IMG/VR virus record: IMGVR_UViG_3300032213_001992
Coordinates: 1-20,470 of that record
Strand: one strand, 5' to 3'
Source: a virus
Length of the DNA stretch: 20,470 bases
Part shown: positions 4,490 through 13,456 of the stretch, one piece after another
Numbering within the stretch: position 1 is the first letter of the stretch
Layout: every line of letters starts with the position of its first letter
Translations under genes and position numbers: made by a program
The notes under the pieces: generated by a model
Seen by the model: the letters and a program-made list of their open reading frames with translations, nothing else
Databases searched by the model: none
Told to the model about the DNA's origin: nothing

Positions 4490-4666
4490 ATGGAAAAAGA
4501 AACCAATGACATCCGACAGGAGGCGCTAAAAGTGTCCTGGTACATGCGAGGTGGTGTGACCTATGATCAAGCCTTGCAACTCAGTGTCAGTGAGAGAACT
4601 TTTATCAGCACCTTGATCAAAGAAAATCTTGAGACCACCAAGAAAACCGGATTGCCATTTTTCTGA
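4490..4666 (+). CDS. Small conserved-looking tail assembly ORF; possibly the frameshift extension of gp26
   Basis: A separate product starting at ATG 4490 would be 58 residues (MEKETNDIRQEALKVSWYMR at the start, ending in TTKKTGLPFF). GTG at 4481 or TTG just after the gp26 stop are other starts, but none has a convincing Shine-Dalgarno. The frame is in fact open far upstream, through the T TTT TTC heptamer at 4430-4436, in the -1 frame of gp26, and the residues between the heptamer and 4490 (RARLLALDSDQISKIVDGM) look like ordinary protein. That arrangement fits a frameshift-made C-terminal domain better than an independent gene. The WYMRGGVTYDQALQL segment resembles small proteins next to gp26 in other T4-like phages; I do not have a firm family name. 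Its stop overlaps the next gene's ATG (TGATG). Confidence 0.65.
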   Translation: MEKETNDIRQEALKVSWYMRGGVTYDQALQLSVSERTFISTLIKENLETTKKTGLPFF

Positions 4667-5169
4667 TGCTGGATCTCGAACGAGTCACCTACGACATAGA
4701 ACGCTGGATCGCAAACTTTGTAGAAGTTCCGCATCCTGCTCTGGGTGGCTGGGCACCGTGTCCCTATGCTAGAAAGGCACGCCTGGACAGAGACTTTGAA
4801 GTCAGACTGGGAGTGAATCCTTATTTTGATTTGAAGGTTATAGCACAGACCGGCATAGCCAAAAGCGTCATAATTTTTGTTTATGAATCAACAGCTTACA
4901 GCTATGAGCAATTTCATACTCAAATTGAATCAGCCAACAAGGAATTTTTGGTAGATAAAGATTTGCTGGCATTGGAGGATCATCCCGGCGCACCCGAGAT
5001 AGTCAACGATGTGTCAATGAATCAAGGCACCTATGCCTTGACCTTGGTACAGTCGTTGAGTGATCTCAACGACAAGGCACGACTCATGGCCCGACGAGGT
5101 TTCTACGACACTTGGCCTGAGCCATACTTGCAAGAGTTGTTCCAACACAGGCAGGATCCCAGATCATGA
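4666..5169 (+). CDS. Unknown protein with PCPYA motif
   Basis: I do not recognise a defined function. The 167-residue soluble protein has an N-terminal WIANFVEVPHPALGGWAPCPYARKARL segment (about residues 14-40), in which the Cys-Pro-Tyr-Ala core is reminiscent of the CPFA motif of DUF1415 proteins; the remainder (a strand VIIFVYES, an acidic helix, then EIVNDVSMNQGTYALTLVQSL) could fit the same fold, but this is a guess from memory. No signal peptide or membrane segment. Start ATG overlaps the upstream stop by one base, and its own stop overlaps the next ATG (ATGA), so it is translationally coupled to both neighbours and belongs to a three-gene accessory module inserted after the gp26 cluster. 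Confidence 0.75.
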   Translation: MLDLERVTYDIERWIANFVEVPHPALGGWAPCPYARKARLDRDFEVRLGVNPYFDLKVIAQTGIAKSVIIFVYESTAYSYEQFHTQIESANKEFLVDKDLLALEDHPGAPEIVNDVSMNQGTYALTLVQSLSDLNDKARLMARRGFYDTWPEPYLQELFQHRQDPRS

Positions 5170-5600
5170 CTTATCAATTTGCTAGAATTAATCTTGACCA
5201 AGTTACATATCAAACGTCCGTGGACTGGGAATACCTGCGTGAACCCAATATACCTGTGTTGCAGGACATCTATAGAACCTATTGTATCTACAAACATTTT
5301 TCATCGGTCATGCCTTTGTTTGACAGCCAGTTTACCGATAGCATGACCGATGTAATTGGTTACAGAGAAAACGGCGAGCTAGTGGCTTTTAGCCTAATGA
5401 AACGATTAGACGATCAAAACGTATTAGCCAGTCAGTTTGCGTGGACCTATCATAATCCACGTAGTCGACTGGGCATTGAGAGTTTGAAAACCGAGTGTGC
5501 TATCTACAGAGATCGCGGTTTTGAATACTTGTACTTGGATCAAGCACACTTGTACAAACAAGGCCTTGAGGGCTTTGAAATTTTAGGACCTATACAATAA
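5166..5600 (+). CDS. GNAT-like acyltransferase-type protein, unknown substrate
   Basis: The 144-residue product looks like a compact GNAT fold: GYRENGELVAFSLMKRL (about 66-82) would be the central beta strands, then FAWTYHNPRSRLGIESLKTE supplies the helix that in GNAT enzymes follows the acyl-CoA loop, and GFEYLYLDQAHLYKQGLEGFEIL is the C-terminal strand-helix-strand. The RSRLGIESLK stretch occupies the place of the pyrophosphate-binding loop but lacks the classical Q/RxxGxG/A form. The C-terminal part is also reminiscent of aminoacyl-tRNA-protein transferases. Start overlaps the upstream stop by four bases (ATGA) and the stop overlaps the next ATG (TAATG), so it is expressed with both neighbours. 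Substrate cannot be inferred from sequence. Confidence 0.72.
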   Translation: MTYQFARINLDQVTYQTSVDWEYLREPNIPVLQDIYRTYCIYKHFSSVMPLFDSQFTDSMTDVIGYRENGELVAFSLMKRLDDQNVLASQFAWTYHNPRSRLGIESLKTECAIYRDRGFEYLYLDQAHLYKQGLEGFEILGPIQ

Positions 5601-5935
5601 TGGCAGACTTATACACAATTTGGGCAGACAAAGAAGGCGATATCTCAGACTTAGACTGGGTCAACGGAATGAAGAGTTTCTTTGATCATCTTATCTCCGA
5701 AGGCAAGATGCAAAGCTACAGGATCACTAGATGCAAAATGGGCTTCCGCAGCATAGCAGACATGCCAGAATTCATGATTCTGATGGAGTTCCGCGACATG
5801 GGCCAAATGGATGAAGCATTTCGCAGAGTAGCACCACTTGAAGGCGAACTAGAAACCAAACACAAAAGTTTCAATCAGTTTGTGAGTGGCAACATCCAGC
5901 ACGCACTGTTTCGAGACTTTCCTGATCAGTTCTGA
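5600..5935 (+). CDS. DUF6614-like small protein
   Basis: The 111-residue product starts MADLYTIWADKEGDISDLDW and continues with a helix (GMKSFFDHLISEGKMQSYRI), TRCKMGF, a strand FMILMEFRDMGQMDEAFRRV and an ending FRDFPDQF. This pattern matches my memory of DUF6614, a ferredoxin-like alpha/beta-barrel-type family found mainly in proteobacteria, with no assigned function. No membrane or secretion signals. It is the last gene of the coupled three-gene module (TAATG overlap with the GNAT-like gene) and its stop codon is the first base pairs of a perfect hairpin (5935-5953). The bacterial character of the family suggests capture from a host. Confidence 0.72.
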   Translation: MADLYTIWADKEGDISDLDWVNGMKSFFDHLISEGKMQSYRITRCKMGFRSIADMPEFMILMEFRDMGQMDEAFRRVAPLEGELETKHKSFNQFVSGNIQHALFRDFPDQF

Positions 5936-6332: not shown

Positions 6333-7166
6333 TTACTGAGTTTCTAAAAAAGTTTTGATTTGTTCAAAATAAATTTGGTTGCTTTTTTTGCCTGGATGCA
6401 GTTTGTCAAAATTTGTATCTACTCGATTTGATAGCATTGAGTCGTAAAGATTGACCCATTGCTGTGGATCAATTCCACCGGCTTGATCATAATCGTCATG
6501 CATGATTTTATAAAGTTTGAAAATATCCTCATCGTTTCTGGAATCTATGTTCAAGATTTCTTTTTTGGTAAAAGGTGTGTAAGCTTCGGGCAATACATCG
6601 TGCAGCCTTACAAAATAGTCGTTGTCCCAGGGACAACATCCGTTTATGAAATATAGTTTGATGCCAAAAGATTTGGCTAGATTTTGTAAAATATTAGAAT
6701 AACGCACAACTTTTAAAATTTCTGGATGTAAATGATGTAAGACTAAAAGTCTATCTAGCAAATCATCTAGATATTTTCTATTCCAACTGATTCCGTTGTT
6801 TAAATTGACGTCACATCTAAGTCTATTGATCGAATTAATATTTTCGGACGTGGGCCAAAGTTCGAATCCCACATCAAATGTGTATCTGGGCATAGATGTC
6901 CATTCACAAAAAATTATTTTTATTTCTTTCTGGAATTTTGAAATTATATTTGTGGTATTGATAAAAATGTCAGTATTGCTGGCACCGCCCTGCCCACAAT
7001 TCAAAAGCTCAAGTTTATTTAATTCAGGAATTTGACTATGGCACAACGTGACATACAGATCTGGATGGTTTGGCACTGCGATTGATATGCTGTCATCAGG
7101 AGAGTCTAATTCTGTCCAACCATTGCCGGCGGTAAAACTGCAACCTAAAAAAACTAACTTATCCAT
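6333..7166 (-). CDS. SGNH/GDSL-family hydrolase
   Basis: Predicted esterase/lipase-fold hydrolase, commonly a deacetylase or acylesterase acting on carbohydrates or lipids. The 277-residue protein shows the SGNH blocks in order: LGCSFTAG with nucleophile Ser10, NCGQGGASN with the oxyanion Gly and Asn (about 57-64), and the C-terminal DKLHPG block supplying the Asp254-x-x-His257 pair. Block III asparagine is probably in the INGCCPWDND region but less certain. No signal peptide. AGGA lies about 7 bases before the ATG at 7166, and the start overlaps the GIY-YIG gene end by 8 bases, so it is the last gene of the leftward operon. Its DNA is visibly more A/T-rich than the core genes, suggesting separate acquisition. 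In phages such proteins may trim surface polysaccharide or act in the infected cell; location cannot be told here. Confidence 0.8.
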   Translation of the reverse strand: MDKLVFLGCSFTAGNGWTELDSPDDSISIAVPNHPDLYVTLCHSQIPELNKLELLNCGQGGASNTDIFINTTNIISKFQKEIKIIFCEWTSMPRYTFDVGFELWPTSENINSINRLRCDVNLNNGISWNRKYLDDLLDRLLVLHHLHPEILKVVRYSNILQNLAKSFGIKLYFINGCCPWDNDYFVRLHDVLPEAYTPFTKKEILNIDSRNDEDIFKLYKIMHDDYDQAGGIDPQQWVNLYDSMLSNRVDTNFDKLHPGKKSNQIYFEQIKTFLETQ

Positions 7167-7599
7167 TGATATTTCCTAATTTGCGGATATGGCTACCATG
7201 CACACGCACTTGAATGTGTCCATTGTACCAGTCATCGCTTTCTAATACACGTCTTGAGAATTGTTCGCGAGCTTCTATGTAACTACATTCAGCCTTGGAC
7301 CTGCAGTAGTATAATATTTCGCGAGTGAAGTTTTGGTTGCCTAACTGTGCTACATCTTTGTTTAGTTGTTCGTTGCTGCCGTAGTATGTCTGCCAGTCTG
7401 ATTCGATTTTGCCACGTATTTTCTTGCGCTTCTTGTTGCCGTTCTTGAGTTTTACTGTCTTGTATGTTGTCTTGCTGAATTTTGCTAATTTTTTTCCAAT
7501 ATACTTTCTGCCGGTTAAGTTATTTGTGATCAAATAAACAAAACCCACGCAGTCTTCGGGTAACACTTCAATAGTTTTGCTTTCGAATAACCATGACAT
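7159..7599 (-). CDS. GIY-YIG endonuclease (putative homing/Seg-like)
   Basis: Predicted DNA endonuclease. The N-terminal GFVYLITNNLTGRKYIGKK segment (about residues 19-37) carries the two signature triplets in the forms FVY and YIG with the usual spacing. A lysine-rich loop (KNGNKKRKKIRGK) is followed by ESDWQTYYGS, the helix with a TREIL motif, and CSYIEAREQF, where the glutamate is the likely metal-binding catalytic residue. The layout and 146-residue length match a GIY-YIG family widespread in T4-like phages, often as a free-standing gene rather than within an intron. It starts 18 bases after the stop of the first radical SAM gene and overlaps the SGNH gene by 8 bases. Whether it mobilises itself or neighbours, or serves in exclusion of competing phages, is unknown. 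Confidence 0.82.
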   Translation of the reverse strand: MSWLFESKTIEVLPEDCVGFVYLITNNLTGRKYIGKKLAKFSKTTYKTVKLKNGNKKRKKIRGKIESDWQTYYGSNEQLNKDVAQLGNQNFTREILYYCRSKAECSYIEAREQFSRRVLESDDWYNGHIQVRVHGSHIRKLGNING

Positions 7600-7617: not shown

Positions 7618-8637
7618 TTACCACTCAGTTGCGTATTTTTCATCTACCCTGGTCGCTGCACACTTTGTTTGGCATTCTTGCCAGCTATAATCTCGGAATG
7701 TAGTCGACCAAAAATCATCAGTCACTGCATCAGTCAAAGTTCTCGCATTCAAATCAAATTTAGCAGAAATTGCTTTCCATTCTGAATTGTGGGCATAGCG
7801 ATTGGCCACCCAACAACAGGGAAAGAGTCTGCCGCGAGCATCAATGTATAAACCCTTGTTACCGATCTCACACAACGGTCGCACACCATTGATTTCTTTG
7901 TTGCGACGGTACAAATCCAGATTGATTGGGTGTGTTTTCCATGCGTGATTGTTCAGTCCACGCACACTCAATAAAATTGTTTCTCGCTCAAATCTGTGAC
8001 TGGAGCTGACAAATTCATCTGCGGGTTGCAGATTGTCGTCGATGCCATAGGATGGATAGATTTTTCCAAATTTTGTACTTTTGGTAATTTGAAACCCATC
8101 CATGCCCCATTGTTGCGCCATGTCAATCATGTCATGCAACTTCTCTTGATTGAACTTGAACGCTATGGCGGCCCATAAAGTACGACAGTGAGAATTTTTG
8201 GTCAAGGTAGTAACACCCTGCTGTATTGATTCAAAGTCGCTGTTGATTCTATATAGATTGTTTGATTCGTTGTTCCAGCCATCTATGCTGAAATGTACAG
8301 TATCCTGCTCGGTGAGCACACTGCCTAGTTGCTGCCACCATTCTGGTTTCTTGTGTGATCCATTGGTGACAATAACAATCTCAACAGGTTTGATTGATTT
8401 GATGTATTGAATAACTGGTATAAGATCGTGGGCATAGATAGGATCACCGTCATCACCACAGAATGTGATCTTTTCTACATTGTCAAGAACAAATTCTTGA
8501 GTAAAGTTTCTTTTAAAAAATTCTAAATCCAGTTCAGTGTTTACCAAACTGTCAGGAATTTCCTGGCGAGCACAACGTGGGCAACGTAGGGTACACTTGC
8601 TACTAATCTCAATATGAAAATGCCAAGTGGCTAACAT
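7618..8637 (-). CDS. Radical SAM enzyme with SPASM-like C-terminus (downstream copy)
   Basis: Predicted iron-sulfur enzyme that cleaves S-adenosylmethionine to start radical chemistry, probably on a peptide or protein. With the start at ATG 8637 (339 aa), the cluster motif CTLRCPRC places cysteines at residues 15, 19 and 22, exactly as in the neighbouring paralogue. GAGG lies 7 bases before this ATG, whereas the earlier in-frame ATG at 8658 has no such site, so I prefer 8637. Further motifs: FCGDDGDP (GGEP-like SAM contact), VTNGS, HFSIDGW, and a C-terminal cysteine set RPLCEIG, FPCCW and ECQTKC typical of SPASM/twitch auxiliary clusters, with YIDARGR between. The start overlaps the upstream paralogue's end by 7 bases (ATGTTAG). 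No precursor peptide gene is visible nearby. Substrate unknown. Confidence 0.85.
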   Translation of the reverse strand: MLATWHFHIEISSKCTLRCPRCARQEIPDSLVNTELDLEFFKRNFTQEFVLDNVEKITFCGDDGDPIYAHDLIPVIQYIKSIKPVEIVIVTNGSHKKPEWWQQLGSVLTEQDTVHFSIDGWNNESNNLYRINSDFESIQQGVTTLTKNSHCRTLWAAIAFKFNQEKLHDMIDMAQQWGMDGFQITKSTKFGKIYPSYGIDDNLQPADEFVSSSHRFERETILLSVRGLNNHAWKTHPINLDLYRRNKEINGVRPLCEIGNKGLYIDARGRLFPCCWVANRYAHNSEWKAISAKFDLNARTLTDAVTDDFWSTTFRDYSWQECQTKCAATRVDEKYATEW

Positions 8638-9497
8638 AGTTGAACCTCGCGTTGCCACTGTTCTTGGAACACTGTTTTATTTTTGGTTGTAGAACAGGCC
8701 TTTACGCACACCAAGTTAGGTGTGTCTGTTTTCCAGGTTAATTTTACAGTAGCCAGATCATCTTTGACAAAATCTCTTTGAGTAGCCCCAAGCCAGCAAC
8801 AAGGGCTTACCCGACCTTGAGCGTCTATGTACATACTTTTTTCATTGAGCACGTGACATTTAATGGGTCCTTGTTTGATTGCGGGTTGTCGCCATCCTAT
8901 AGGAAATTCCAATCGATCAGTAAACCCACGCTTACTGACCTTGGCACGAAACCACTTGAATCCCAGATCACGTGCTAATTGCTCACAAGCATCTACTTGA
9001 TGTTGATTATGTTTGTAAACCAACATGTCCCAATGAGCTGATCCGCCTGCAGCAATGAATGCTTGGGCATTGGCCATCAGCTTTTTCCAATTTACATTTT
9101 TTCTATACACGTGATTGGTATCTTCTAATCCATCTATGCTGAACACACAATAGTCTCGGGCCTGATTAAACAAACCTCCTAGTTCATGCCAAAAGAATGT
9201 GCTTTGCACAGCACCATTGGTGTTCATGCCTAGCACGATGTCAGGATTGATTTTTCTAAAATATCGGTAAATGTCTAGGGTATAATACCCGGCAGCCGGG
9301 TCACCATAGTTGCCACACATGAACATCTTGTCCATGTTGCCAATCACGCGATCAGAAAAATGTTGTTGGATTTGTTCTATGCGTAAGTGATGTTTTTGAT
9401 CCTTTCTAAATATCGGATCGGTTTCTCGGGCGCACATTGGGCATGCAGCCTGACAGACGTCTGTGGGTTCGATGTGTAATACTCGGATTCTACGCAA
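8631..9497 (-). CDS. Radical SAM enzyme with SPASM-like C-terminus (upstream copy)
   Basis: Paralogue of the next gene downstream and probably its partner. The 288-residue product starts at a TTG (9497), since the codon two before it in frame is a TAG stop and no early ATG exists; GGATG about 8 bases upstream may serve as ribosome binding site. Motifs in order: CQAACPMC with cysteines 15, 19 and 22 for the catalytic [4Fe-4S] cluster, MCGNYGDP, MNTNGA, FSIDGL, then the C-terminal KCHVL, YIDAQGRVSPCCW and VCVKAC cysteines for auxiliary cluster(s). It overlaps the end of gene 46 by 8 bases and therefore depends on that gene's translation. The family includes peptide-modifying and anaerobic maturase enzymes; the sequence does not say which reaction this one performs. 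Confidence 0.85.
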   Translation of the reverse strand: MRRIRVLHIEPTDVCQAACPMCARETDPIFRKDQKHHLRIEQIQQHFSDRVIGNMDKMFMCGNYGDPAAGYYTLDIYRYFRKINPDIVLGMNTNGAVQSTFFWHELGGLFNQARDYCVFSIDGLEDTNHVYRKNVNWKKLMANAQAFIAAGGSAHWDMLVYKHNQHQVDACEQLARDLGFKWFRAKVSKRGFTDRLEFPIGWRQPAIKQGPIKCHVLNEKSMYIDAQGRVSPCCWLGATQRDFVKDDLATVKLTWKTDTPNLVCVKACSTTKNKTVFQEQWQREVQLC

Positions 9498-11256
9498 GAT
9501 CTACATCCGTGTTGTAACTGGTAAAGCCGCCTTCTTTGACCACCTTGAGAATGTTTTCTACACGACCGGCCAGTTCATCTCTGTGCGAAACCAGCCAGAT
9601 TGATTTGTGACGTTCTCGACTCATGTGTTTGAGCAAGGCCAACGAATTTTCTACGCCCTGTGTATCTAGTCCTGAGTCGATCATTTCGTCTATGAACAGC
9701 ACATTGATGGGTTGGTACAGACTTTCGAACACATCGCGGAAGGCCCAGCTCATGGACAGTATCAAACGGTTGCGCTCACCGCGACTCAAATTGTCAAAAT
9801 CTAATTCGCGACCTAGTTCCTCAATGCTCACAGTCAAGTCGTTCTGGAATATCACAGTGTGTGGCAACCCGATCCTGTCTAAATAGTGTGTGAGTCGGGC
9901 ATTCAAATAACTCAAATTCTGTTCAATGATCTTTTTGCGTATAAAACTGTCCTTGCTGGTCAATAGTTTTAGCAAGAAGTCTTGATGTTCTTGTAGTCTA
10001 GTAAGTTCGTTAAGTGTGTCATAACTTACTACCTGTAACGCCCGGCCCTGCATGTCAGAGATCTGTTCTTCGTAAGGATCTGTTTCGACCTGTTTGTCCG
10101 TTAACTGTTTTTCTAATGCCGACATACTGCTCCGATGGTGTATAGCATCCTCCTCACGATCATAAAACATCGCAGGCGGTTTGCCTAGCGTGCCCAAGGC
10201 GGTGTGGGCAGTCTCAAGTTCTGATAAGAGCTGTGTATGTTCCTGGCACGCTTCTCGCGCTCGCTCCAGATCAGCCTGCTTACCTTCCAGGACCTGTTGG
10301 TGCTTATGGTCGTGGAAAGCCTGCCCGCAAGTGTGACATGTGTGACTTTCAAGTGTCGCAATCTCCTTGCCAAGCTTCTCAATGCTTTTGTTCTCGCGGT
10401 CCTTATCAAGCTTCGTGCGGGAGATCTGTCCAGCCAGATCGTTAAGATCTTTGCGCTTCTGATCCCATACTCGGTGCGCCTTGTGGGACGCAATCTCGGC
10501 TTCAATGTCAATCTTCTTGAGCTCTTCGAGCGCGGTTTCAAGTTTTGCAATCTCTTCTTCATGTTTGGTCATCCATAATGTTTGCCTGCGTCGCAAGGAT
10601 TCGATCTGTTCTTCGATCCTTTTGTTGGCCTCCTGCACAGCACGTATGCGGAATTCTTCCTGCTGTATGCCTTCCTTGGTCTGCCGGTTGTGTTCTTTGA
10701 TCTTGTCGGCTCGCTCACTGAGCATGGTAATGCCTAATAACTGTTCAATAATGGTTCTTTGATCGTTGGCTTTGAGACTTAGAAATGGTTCAGTATAGGT
10801 GTTGAGTGCTAGGATGTGTTTGAACATGTCGTGACTGAGCCCCAGCACCGATTCTATAGCATCCTGTGTTTCTCTTGAATCACCTTGAGCTTCGTCGGTT
10901 ACGGTCTGTTGTTCGTTGTTTACATAGAATCTTAGAACATTGGGTTTGCGACCACGTTCGATGCGATATTCCTTGCCACTCACACTGAAGTCCAAGCTGA
11001 CCAGCATGTTTTTTCCGTTGGTCTTGTTGACCAGATTGTCTTTGCGTATGTTTGAAAGAGCTTGACCATACAGGCTGTAACTAAGTGCGTTGATTATGGT
11101 GGTCTTGCCTGTGCCATTACGGCTGCCATCGCCGCCCAGATCGAGATTTTCTCCCAGCACCAAGGTCAGGTCTTTGCGTTCAAAATTTATGCCCTGGGTG
11201 TTGTTGCCCACACTCATGAAGTTTTTTACTGTTAGTTTTTTTATCTGTAAACTCAT
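9490..11256 (-). CDS. 46: Recombination nuclease ATPase subunit, T4 gp46-like (SbcC/Rad50 family)
   Basis: ATPase subunit of the gp46/gp47 complex that resects DNA ends for phage recombination-dependent replication, repair and host DNA degradation. The 588-residue product from ATG 11256 (MSLQIKKLTVKNFMSVG) contains Walker A with RNGTGKTT (about 46-53), a long coiled-coil arm interrupted by the zinc hook CHTC (307-310), the ABC signature LSRGERNRLILS, Walker B VLFIDEMID and the switch histidine in SHRDEL. An in-frame TTG-type start at 11352 would add 32 residues that do not look like gp46, so I chose 11256, which overlaps the upstream stop as TAATG. T4 gp46 is 560 residues. Unlike T4, a 396-residue gene lies between it and gene 47. 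Confidence 0.95.
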   Translation of the reverse strand: MSLQIKKLTVKNFMSVGNNTQGINFERKDLTLVLGENLDLGGDGSRNGTGKTTIINALSYSLYGQALSNIRKDNLVNKTNGKNMLVSLDFSVSGKEYRIERGRKPNVLRFYVNNEQQTVTDEAQGDSRETQDAIESVLGLSHDMFKHILALNTYTEPFLSLKANDQRTIIEQLLGITMLSERADKIKEHNRQTKEGIQQEEFRIRAVQEANKRIEEQIESLRRRQTLWMTKHEEEIAKLETALEELKKIDIEAEIASHKAHRVWDQKRKDLNDLAGQISRTKLDKDRENKSIEKLGKEIATLESHTCHTCGQAFHDHKHQQVLEGKQADLERAREACQEHTQLLSELETAHTALGTLGKPPAMFYDREEDAIHHRSSMSALEKQLTDKQVETDPYEEQISDMQGRALQVVSYDTLNELTRLQEHQDFLLKLLTSKDSFIRKKIIEQNLSYLNARLTHYLDRIGLPHTVIFQNDLTVSIEELGRELDFDNLSRGERNRLILSMSWAFRDVFESLYQPINVLFIDEMIDSGLDTQGVENSLALLKHMSRERHKSIWLVSHRDELAGRVENILKVVKEGGFTSYNTDVDLA

Positions 11257-12446
11257 TATATTTTGGCCAGCAGGTCTGTTAATTGCGATTTTGAATAATT
11301 TTCTACGTAGTGTTGAAAATTGTATTCGACAGTATCTACTATATTGTTGCACAGTTTATCAAAATCTGCTACGGACATAGAGCAAATTTGTTGGCAAATT
11401 GCAGCAACTTTTTTCATACGTTTGGAACAATCTGGTTCTGAATCATACGATTCGTCCCAAAATTTTGCAAAGGTTTTGAATCCAAGATTTTTTAATCTTG
11501 CAAGGGTGTTACAAGCACCCAAGACTACAAAAGGCCGACGATTCAAAATTGGAGTCCAAGTTTTTTCACTGATATAAGGATATGGGTAATCAAAAACTGT
11601 TTCAGCCACAACATACAACAATGCTTGTTTCACAGCCGGGATCCAAAATTTGACATCGTAGGGCAATACGTTTGGTCCTTCATGCAATCTTTCGTCTTTG
11701 TAGTTGTTGTTAAAACTGTCTGAGTGTTTGTTGAATATCTGTTTTAGATCAGAATCTGCTGTAAAAAAATCATTGATTCTGGTATATGGGTGCGGCCATA
11801 TCATACTTTGAGAAACGTTTAATGTAGTTGATTCAACTGGTGGCAGATTGTCAAAGTGTGAACGAGATTGCCGGTCAAAGTGCCAGGAACATATTCCAGA
11901 ATCCAGACAGTTTAAATCTTTCAACAATGATAAAAAAAACAATCGATGAGATCTTTTCTGTCCGTTTAGATAGATAAATTTTTTTTTAATTTTATCAAGT
12001 TCAGGACCTGAATTTATCACATGATCGGAAATGGTCTCGGGACACATCATGAGCTGGTAATTACACTCGACTATCTTGAGATAGTCGTTGTCAAAATCAT
12101 GATTGTGATATTTTTTTCCTATGTGATTTTTTATTTCTTGTTGAATGCCTTCGTGGTTTGTAAAAAAAATCACACTAGAAAGAGAGATATCAAGTTGGCG
12201 CAACAGTTCTAAAAGATTATACAAGTGTAAGCCAATGTCATTGGTCAGATAAAAATCTGTGTCAAAGTGAGAGATTATAATTTTTTCATTGGGTGCGTAG
12301 TGTGATTTTTGCAAACTTTTTAATACATCAAAAAAAGTTTGAGCGTCTGACGTCACATGGGTAAGATCAAATTGACCTATGATGGAATATTTTTTTTCGC
12401 ATTCTTGTTGTATCGAAGACCAAAGAAAACATTTGATGTCTATCAT
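11256..12446 (-). CDS. Glycosyltransferase-like protein of unknown specificity
   Basis: The 396-residue product has no secure family assignment. Its second half looks like a GT-B-type glycosyltransferase C-terminal domain: KKKFIYLNGQKRSHR (about 154-168), then DYPYPYISEKTWTPILNRRP (286-305), where SEK followed by a helix and FVVLG resembles the nucleotide-sugar site of GT10-like fucosyltransferases, then LKNLGFKTFAKFWDESYD. Such proteins occur as hypothetical genes in aquatic T4-like phages. The N-terminal half is A/T-rich and unassigned, with an alpha/beta look (KIIISHFDTDFYL, SVIFFTNHEG). The start overlaps the gene 47 stop (ATGA) and the stop overlaps the gene 46 start (TAATG), so it is precisely embedded between the two nuclease genes. 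Its DNA is clearly A/T-richer than both. Confidence 0.6.
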   Translation of the reverse strand: MIDIKCFLWSSIQQECEKKYSIIGQFDLTHVTSDAQTFFDVLKSLQKSHYAPNEKIIISHFDTDFYLTNDIGLHLYNLLELLRQLDISLSSVIFFTNHEGIQQEIKNHIGKKYHNHDFDNDYLKIVECNYQLMMCPETISDHVINSGPELDKIKKKFIYLNGQKRSHRLFFLSLLKDLNCLDSGICSWHFDRQSRSHFDNLPPVESTTLNVSQSMIWPHPYTRINDFFTADSDLKQIFNKHSDSFNNNYKDERLHEGPNVLPYDVKFWIPAVKQALLYVVAETVFDYPYPYISEKTWTPILNRRPFVVLGACNTLARLKNLGFKTFAKFWDESYDSEPDCSKRMKKVAAICQQICSMSVADFDKLCNNIVDTVEYNFQHYVENYSKSQLTDLLAKI

Positions 12447-13456
12447 AAATTTTGATAAATCTTTAACAAAAGTTTGGGATCATAAAATTCACTCTCTATA
12501 TTTGTAAGTTGATCAGTTACTATTTGATCTACACTTTCAAATTTGACTTCTCCTGGCGCCATGTCTGTGTCTACGGCTGTGTTTTTGACCGGAATCAAGG
12601 CCATCTCTCTGAGATCGTAATCTTTAATAAACGTATCTTTGATAAAATTAGCTTCTTCGTAGCTGATGTCAATGTCTAGCTCCACACGCACATGCATGTT
12701 TTTGGCCAACAAGTCTGGGGCCGAATCAATGACCTGGCTGAGTTTTAGGACTTTGTACAAGGGTTGTCCTGGCCAGGAATGGAACACAGGTTGCTGGCCC
12801 CACTCTAGTGTCATCATGCCACGCTGATTGTCGCCAGCATCGGCATAATTGTGTGGAAAGCAGTTGCCGATATAGTGTATGTTTTTCTTTTGCTGTCGCA
12901 AGTGAAAATGTCCAGAAAACACACGATCAAACCCACCGAAGTGATCAACCTGTATATCACCATGATCGGGCATTTCTACCATGGCATTCATTTTAAAATG
13001 CGGGAGTTCAAAGTGCCCAAACATGTACTGACCTTTTAGTTTTGGTATCTTTTTATGATCGTCGCCGACCAACCAAGGTGCTATGACCACATCGCCGTCC
13101 TGAAACCAGTCATTGACTATTTGTATGTTGGGTATATGCCGTGCCCATTCTGTGCTGTAGATGTCGCGCTTGTCACGATAATACAAGTCGTGATTGCCCG
13201 GAATAAAGTAAAATCGATCAAAAGCCGCACTCAACTTTTCCAGACTACGCAGGCTATATTGCAAGGTCTGCATGTTGATTGCTGCACGCTGATGGCTCCA
13301 GTCGCCTAGGAACATGCCGGTTTCACAACCATTGGCCCGGGCCGTGTCTATAAACCAATCAATGAAATTACTACAATCTTGATTGTGAACCAGGCTGTTG
13401 GATTTTAAACCAAAGTGGATGTCAGTGCAAACTGCTACCTTACGGAATAGACTCAT
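12443..13456 (-). CDS. 47: Recombination nuclease catalytic subunit, T4 gp47-like (SbcD/Mre11 family)
   Basis: Metallophosphoesterase-fold nuclease that works with gp46 in end resection. At 337 residues it matches T4 gp47 (339). The metal-binding motifs are all present: TDIHFG (Asp12, His14), GDWSH (Asp52, His55), PGNHD (Asn88, His89), GHFE (His148) and SGHFHLRQ (His183, His185). The start at 13456 is fixed by the closeness of the first motif. The four-base ATGA overlap couples it to the GT-like gene, which in turn is coupled to gene 46. A sigma70-like promoter (-35 TTGCAA, 17-base spacer, TATAAT) lies so close upstream that a message made from it would have almost no leader; no Shine-Dalgarno is visible. 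Confidence 0.95.
   Translation of the reverse strand: MSLFRKVAVCTDIHFGLKSNSLVHNQDCSNFIDWFIDTARANGCETGMFLGDWSHQRAAINMQTLQYSLRSLEKLSAAFDRFYFIPGNHDLYYRDKRDIYSTEWARHIPNIQIVNDWFQDGDVVIAPWLVGDDHKKIPKLKGQYMFGHFELPHFKMNAMVEMPDHGDIQVDHFGGFDRVFSGHFHLRQQKKNIHYIGNCFPHNYADAGDNQRGMMTLEWGQQPVFHSWPGQPLYKVLKLSQVIDSAPDLLAKNMHVRVELDIDISYEEANFIKDTFIKDYDLREMALIPVKNTAVDTDMAPGEVKFESVDQIVTDQLTNIESEFYDPKLLLKIYQNL

Follow-up and report, generated by a model that had tools for sequence, protein, structure and literature searches.

Two radical SAM genes with twitch-like cysteine sets as independent occupants of an accessory-gene hotspot beside phage gene 46

Two adjacent genes for radical SAM proteins, here called A and B, lie next to recombination gene 46 in the window, a 20,470-base IMG/VR virus record. 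The distribution of their relatives shows that the two are independent accessory genes and not an obligate pair, and that they occupy an interval that serves as a hotspot for accessory genes in a lineage of very large T4-like phages. Tentatively, we take them to be intact twitch-type radical SAM enzymes, living as independent hotspot genes and acting as tailoring oxidoreductases of a phage pathway for sugars or small molecules.

The region that holds A and B is on the minus strand. Read from gene 47 down, the order on that strand is gp47, a 396-aa gene, gp46, B, A, a SegE-like gene and an SGNH-like gene. The sequence-only reading had placed A and B inside a gp46/gp47 operon, and the identity of both recombination genes is confirmed by profile matches: gp47 (SbcD-like, 12443..13456) by phrog_100 (E 5.7e-55) and PF00149, gp46 (SbcC-like, 9490..11256) by phrog_77 (E 3e-101). 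The gp46 reading frame opens upstream at 11352; its relatives start near the methionine of MSLQIKK, and align from about residue 33. Between the two recombination genes sits an accessory gene (11256..12446, 396 aa) with no Pfam or PHROG match, in an interval that gp47 borders.

The interval that holds B and A has two conserved borders. One is gp46. The other is the gene for a SegE-like GIY-YIG protein (7159..7599; PF19835, E 4.8e-33), whose cluster is present at 138 loci. Positions 7159-7599 also match phrog_447, labelled "NAD synthetase"; Pfam reports a SegE GIY-YIG endonuclease domain here, and the PHROG label appears wrong. The constant position of this gene beside the hotspot might bear some relation to cassette exchange. 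Next in order, the SGNH/GDSL-like protein (6333..7166, 277 aa) is recognized by its motif only (GCSFTAG), with no Pfam match. It belongs to an accessory family (cluster 22) that in one relative sits inside the gp46-segE interval. Further past segE, on the opposite strand, positions 4666-5935 hold a conserved block of three genes whose products are DUF6875-like, ATE_C-like (a weak match) and DUF6614; many relatives keep this block.

Gene B (8631..9497, 288 aa) starts with a TTG at 9497 and overlaps the stop of gene 46 by 8 nt. Gene A (7618..8637, 339 aa) starts with an ATG at 8637 and overlaps the stop of B by 7 nt. An alternative GTG start for A at 8658, giving 346 aa, is possible; the residues before M8 vary among relatives. 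A gap of 18 nt separates A from segE. The overlaps suggest that A, B and gene 46 may be translationally coupled.

With these starts, the coordinates of the two genes stand as first given, as do the cysteines at 15, 19 and 22 in both proteins and the PCCW set that they share (A 273-276, B 232-235). Across 70 distinct A proteins and 76 distinct B proteins, the cysteines of the CX3CX2C motif never vary, and those of the C-terminal C-(17 or 18)-CC...CX3C pattern are likewise 100% conserved. The full invariant set is C15/C19/C22, C60 and C256/C274/C275/C322/C326 in A (numbered from the ATG), and C15/C19/C22, C61 and C214/C233/C234/C264/C268 in B. A matches PF04055 (Radical_SAM) with 35.1 bits, above the cut-off of 29.5; B scores 28.0 bits in hmmscan, just below that cut-off, and 29.7 in a genome search with its frame neighbours. 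Both match phrog_21308 (A, E 6.6e-25; B, E 1.7e-16). In close homologue pairs, the median dN/dS is 0.083 for A and 0.063 for B; both genes are under purifying selection. The radical SAM cysteine sets are intact in the two proteins, and both would be catalytically active.

The assignment to the SPASM type does not stand. A full SPASM protein was taken to be one with a seven-cysteine C-terminal domain that binds two auxiliary clusters, together with a Pfam SPASM match; a twitch protein has a shortened SPASM, with C-terminal cysteines that bind one auxiliary cluster. Against PF13186, A gives no match and B gives 17.1 bits, under the cut-off of 21.5, and each protein has just five conserved C-terminal cysteines. 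These are too few for a full SPASM, and the shorter twitch type therefore fits better. The cysteine pattern and the coverage of the BtrN fold agree with this type; BtrN, too, has one auxiliary set of cysteines at its C terminus, and the first spacing is similar to that in A and B. The C-terminal set of A and B would be expected to bind an auxiliary Fe-S cluster.

Profiles of named families place neither protein. The N_Twi_rSAM family (NF033640) belongs to the same superfamily, is abundant in the same genomes and is found in the same hotspot. Its twitch, however, precedes the barrel in proteins of about 400 aa, whereas the cysteines of A and B follow the barrel; at a cut-off of 170 bits, A is not listed and B gives a weak 33.6 bits. 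The MoaA profile TIGR02666 (cut-off 284) returns 34.0 bits for A and 17.2 for B. A scan of genome contigs gave three homologues only, at 32-45% identity, and among 50,697 phage records no match to A or B reached 30% identity.

A and B are homologous radical SAM enzymes with the SAM site intact in both, as the sequence-only reading held; they are 26% identical (E 6e-24), with the cysteines invariant. Their kinship is old, however. In a tree with phage and bacterial relatives, A and B each form their own fully supported clade, and other phage and bacterial proteins branch between them. B is nearer another phage group (83/76, a weak support), and A is nearer proteins from Bdellovibrionota (99/95). 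Because branches are long and the deep nodes weakly supported, the order of branching is only approximate. Thus, the proposed duplication and divergence is correct in a deep sense, but the tree does not support a sister relation: A and B appear to be ancient cousins. A recent duplication was considered and dropped on the strength of the separate clades.

An obligate two-enzyme unit, a heterodimer or a sequential pair, might modify a single protein target, for example a virion or host protein. The overlap of the genes favours this, as does the B-A order, which is fixed wherever both occur (71 loci with B and A in the set anchored on A or B, redundancy included), and as do the intact enzymes and the purifying selection on both. 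The unit was judged from intervals in loci retrieved through gp46 or segE rather than through A or B. These cover the nearest relatives of the two border genes among the matches listed, out of more than 599 in the collection. Among these matches, the 112 non-redundant gp46-segE intervals divide into 7 with both genes, 21 with A only, 11 with B only and 73 with neither. Across all 112 of the listed intervals, A and B show no significant association (Fisher p = 0.15; 0.79 when occupied intervals alone are counted). The long contigs, none of them certified as a complete genome, tell the same story: B and A are adjacent in five, A occurs without B at 344 and 228 kb, B without A at 262 and 135 kb, and three contigs of 317-347 kb have neither. 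In a tree of 84 A proteins, the neighbouring B was gained or lost at least seven times on well supported branches. Independent occurrence was named beforehand as the result that refutes the pair, and it is what intervals, large contigs and the A tree all display. The idea of an obligate pair is thereby largely set aside, and two enzymes bound together on one protein target are very improbable.

The interval itself behaves as a hotspot. It is empty in 35 of the 112 cases among the matches listed. Elsewhere, it holds radical SAM genes of the B12 type or the N-terminal-twitch type, genes for short-chain dehydrogenases (SDR), and SGNH-like or P-loop-like genes, among others. The gp47-gp46 interval is likewise variable, with radical SAM, SGNH-like or other genes in relatives. 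In the gp46-segE interval, a family of small proteins (150-190 aa), with no Pfam match and probably beta-rich, recurs directly beside the radical SAM genes of the B12 type (L288:3787-4302, L246:3173-3709, L223:5331-5846).

The closest large relative is contig G004 (320 kb), with a B 89% and an A 78% identical to those of the window. Its further radical SAM genes abut a clamp loader, a DnaB-like helicase (followed by primase), the large subunit of terminase, and gp47. The hotspot, and the radical SAM genes beside other core genes, indicate that closeness to gp46 and gp47 reflects where accessory genes settle. Thus, the tie to recombination drawn in the sequence-only reading is positional only, and A and B are not specifically linked to recombination.

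What, then, do these enzymes act upon? AlphaFold2 models were built from alignments of 55 (A) and 56 (B) sequences, with a mean pLDDT of 86.4 for A and 90.0 for B, and a pTM of 0.89 for each. The models match SPASM/twitch radical SAM enzymes over nearly the whole chain. For A, the Z values are 18.3 for SuiB and for BlsE, 17.6 for MoaA, 17.4 for SkfB, 17.3 for DesII, about 16 for viperin and 14.3 for BtrN; for B, they are 16.9 for BlsE, 16.4 for SkfB and 16.3 for SuiB. AnSME is also among the fold matches. BlsE (7vob), from blasticidin S biosynthesis, is the best or tied best match for both, superposing on 268 residues of A at 4.2 Å and 244 of B at 3.9 Å, at 15-17% identity. The tie with SuiB, MoaA and SkfB allows no functional assignment from this likeness. 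BtrN (4m7t), a twitch radical SAM dehydrogenase, aligns with 222 residues of A at 3.7 Å, and with 208 of B at 3.6 Å (Z 13.5); here the identity is 11-13%, and A and B differ in having CX3C as the last pair and an extra adjacent cysteine (PCC). With Z values tied, the fold does not name the substrate. The predicted structures do not separate enzymes that act on sugars or nucleotides (BlsE, BtrN, DesII, MoaA) from those that act on peptides (SuiB, SkfB, AnSME).

This leaves room for a peptide or protein substrate, with A and B as maturases, RiPP-like or otherwise, acting on a precursor from another part of the phage genome or from the host. SuiB, SkfB and AnSME are, of course, among the tied best fold matches, and the NCBIfam peptide-maturase profiles do give matches to A and B. 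These matches are weak, however, with all scores far under cut-off. Further, A and B start straight with the barrel, which leaves no N-terminal domain to bind a leader. The earlier observation that no precursor peptide is visible also holds, since the two overlaps and the 18-nt gap leave no space for a small ORF beside A or B; these rule out an adjacent precursor gene. We regard maturation of a peptide or protein as unlikely.

A nucleic acid or nucleotide substrate is just as unlikely in our judgment. Here, A and B would hypermodify bases of the phage nucleic acid, or produce a modified nucleotide much as viperin or MoaA does. The best Foldseek matches are viperin for A and BlsE, a cytosyl-sugar enzyme, for B; the PADLOC pVip profile gives A 38.8 bits and B none. 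A sequence search of solved structures gave weak viperin matches for A (its profile against viperin-like 7n7h, E 0.00076) and nothing significant for B. Replication and recombination genes are nearby. Against this, A reaches 28.5 bits with the prokaryotic viperin profile NF038283, whose cut-off is 180, and has a C-terminal cysteine set the like of which is, to our knowledge, absent from viperin. The thymidine hypermodification kinase HMUDK_hel was not found, in a search run without a positive control, and QueC matches are weak. Other radical SAM genes, moreover, adjoin terminase and further unrelated genes.

The sharpest clue comes from the company that homologues keep. In 10 phage loci, whose A genes make up a sister A clade, the gene immediately upstream of A encodes a dehydrogenase of one SDR family, and 19 SDR matches lie directly downstream of other members of the A/B family. 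The phage loci had been fetched around the interval, and the link was therefore checked independently in bacterial genomes. In 369 genomes of Bdellovibrionota, 6 of 8 strong A orthologues have an SDR gene within about 1.5 kb, but only 2 among 23 weaker relatives do (Fisher p 9e-4, for related species that are not fully independent). The A of the window has no adjoining SDR and falls outside the subclade of SDR-linked A proteins; the contig G004, where both B and A occur, has one SDR of the A-linked family, at 272 kb. The idea that B and SDR exclude each other as neighbours of A was dropped, since at locus L118 B and an SDR seem to stand together with an A-like gene that is cut. A/B-like genes are present in 28 of the 369 Bdellovibrionota genomes (L304-L334), some having up to five or more, and often adjoin N-terminal-twitch-like radical SAM genes.

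The pairing resembles the logic of AprD4/AprD3, a radical SAM dehydratase and an NADPH reductase that together perform a deoxygenation in apramycin biosynthesis (PMC5461906). In the sister A clade and in the bacterial A homologues, a radical SAM protein again has a partner of the reductase type. The analogy is functional only, and the window's A has no adjoining SDR. Given this resemblance, we tentatively favour a C-H oxidoreduction whose substrate is a small metabolite, sugar-like or other, with A and B as tailoring oxidoreductases. In such a reaction, the [4Fe-4S] cluster held by CX3CX2C would cleave SAM, and a hydrogen would then be abstracted from a carbon of the metabolite. The auxiliary Fe-S cluster near the C terminus may hold the substrate in place or take up an electron, and a partner dehydrogenase would finish the redox reaction in the way that AprD3 serves AprD4. 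The reaction would be one step in a phage-encoded tailoring of a glycan or natural product, be it of the envelope, of the virion or diffusible. That the substrate is sugar-like is suggested by the gene neighbourhood and not by a binding site, and a role in infection is likewise conjectural.

T4-like phages rich in radical SAM genes are already known. The Campylobacter phages CP220 and CPt10 have 11-12 radical SAM proteins, with an exchangeable module of five that includes an amidinotransferase (PMC2853527, 2010). The marine T4-like genome TARA_ERS488813_N000010 has 12 radical SAM genes and an A-type Fe-S carrier (PMC5332604, 2017), and radical SAM cassettes were noted in the host-recognition regions of pelagimyophages (PMC7029224, 2020). 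To call A and B part of an unexplained phage function is fair, although the expansion as such had been reported. A is distantly related to proteins of CP220 (25.7% identity). In CP220, radical SAM genes are accompanied by nucleotide-sugar transferases and by what may be a glycine amidinotransferase; in Pelagibacter phage Mosig, their company is a carbamoyltransferase, an ArnB-like aminotransferase and an epimerase. Compared with CP220/CPt10 and the TARA genome, A and B are here found in the gp46-segE interval, on contigs of up to 344 kb. New here are the two families of A and B, the slot that they occupy, the independence of one from the other, and the link to SDR genes.

The phage contigs with relatives of A and B are metagenomic. 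Twelve large ones have 7-21 PF04055 matches and 8-19 N_Twi_rSAM matches each, and six contigs above 260 kb have two A-type Fe-S carriers each. Dense radical SAM clusters in large contigs include NodU-type carbamoyltransferases and proteins that resemble amidinotransferases, with weak Pfam support; one also has an NAD-dependent sugar epimerase. In G004, a radical SAM gene lies between a piece of a DegT/DnrJ-like aminotransferase and an epimerase of the GDP-mannose dehydratase type. A conserved block of 10-18 kb recurs in L146, L147, L148, L149, L150 and L152; in it, several radical SAM genes, most of them of the N-terminal-twitch type, are mixed with carbamoyltransferase, amidinotransferase-like, SGNH-like and unmatched genes.

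G004 also has, inside 2.7 kb (L341:3055-5720, which is G004 111055-113720), IscU (PF01592, 174.5 bits), an A-type carrier (PF01521), an unmatched 337-aa gene and an adjoining radical SAM gene. This is a phage-encoded Fe-S assembly module. No metK was found in the 12 large contigs, nor an MTA/SAH nucleosidase by PF01048. Such nucleosidases can clear 5'-deoxyadenosine, a by-product of radical SAM enzymes, and a phage-borne protein that resembles them is seen near the A/B interval at L113:10735-11283.

A wider hypothesis, and a doubtful one, is that the phages of this lineage combine their own Fe-S assembly factors with a combinatorial toolkit of radical enzymes, to build sugars or natural products that are peculiar to the phages and not known from their hosts. 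The genes behind the 7-21 radical SAM matches per contig would be swapped among core genes singly or in small modules, with A and B as two members in wide use.

In phages, radical SAM enzymes are uncommon. They depend on clusters that are sensitive to oxygen, and are usually a sign of difficult C-H chemistry. Guilt by association had made of A and B a vague pair near recombination genes; this is corrected once the closeness to gp46 and gp47 is seen as an insertion hotspot. The independence of A and B, and the dehydrogenase that recurs as a partner of their homologues, replace that pair with questions that can be tested one enzyme at a time. The two genes point to a large, unexplored reservoir of phage enzymes.
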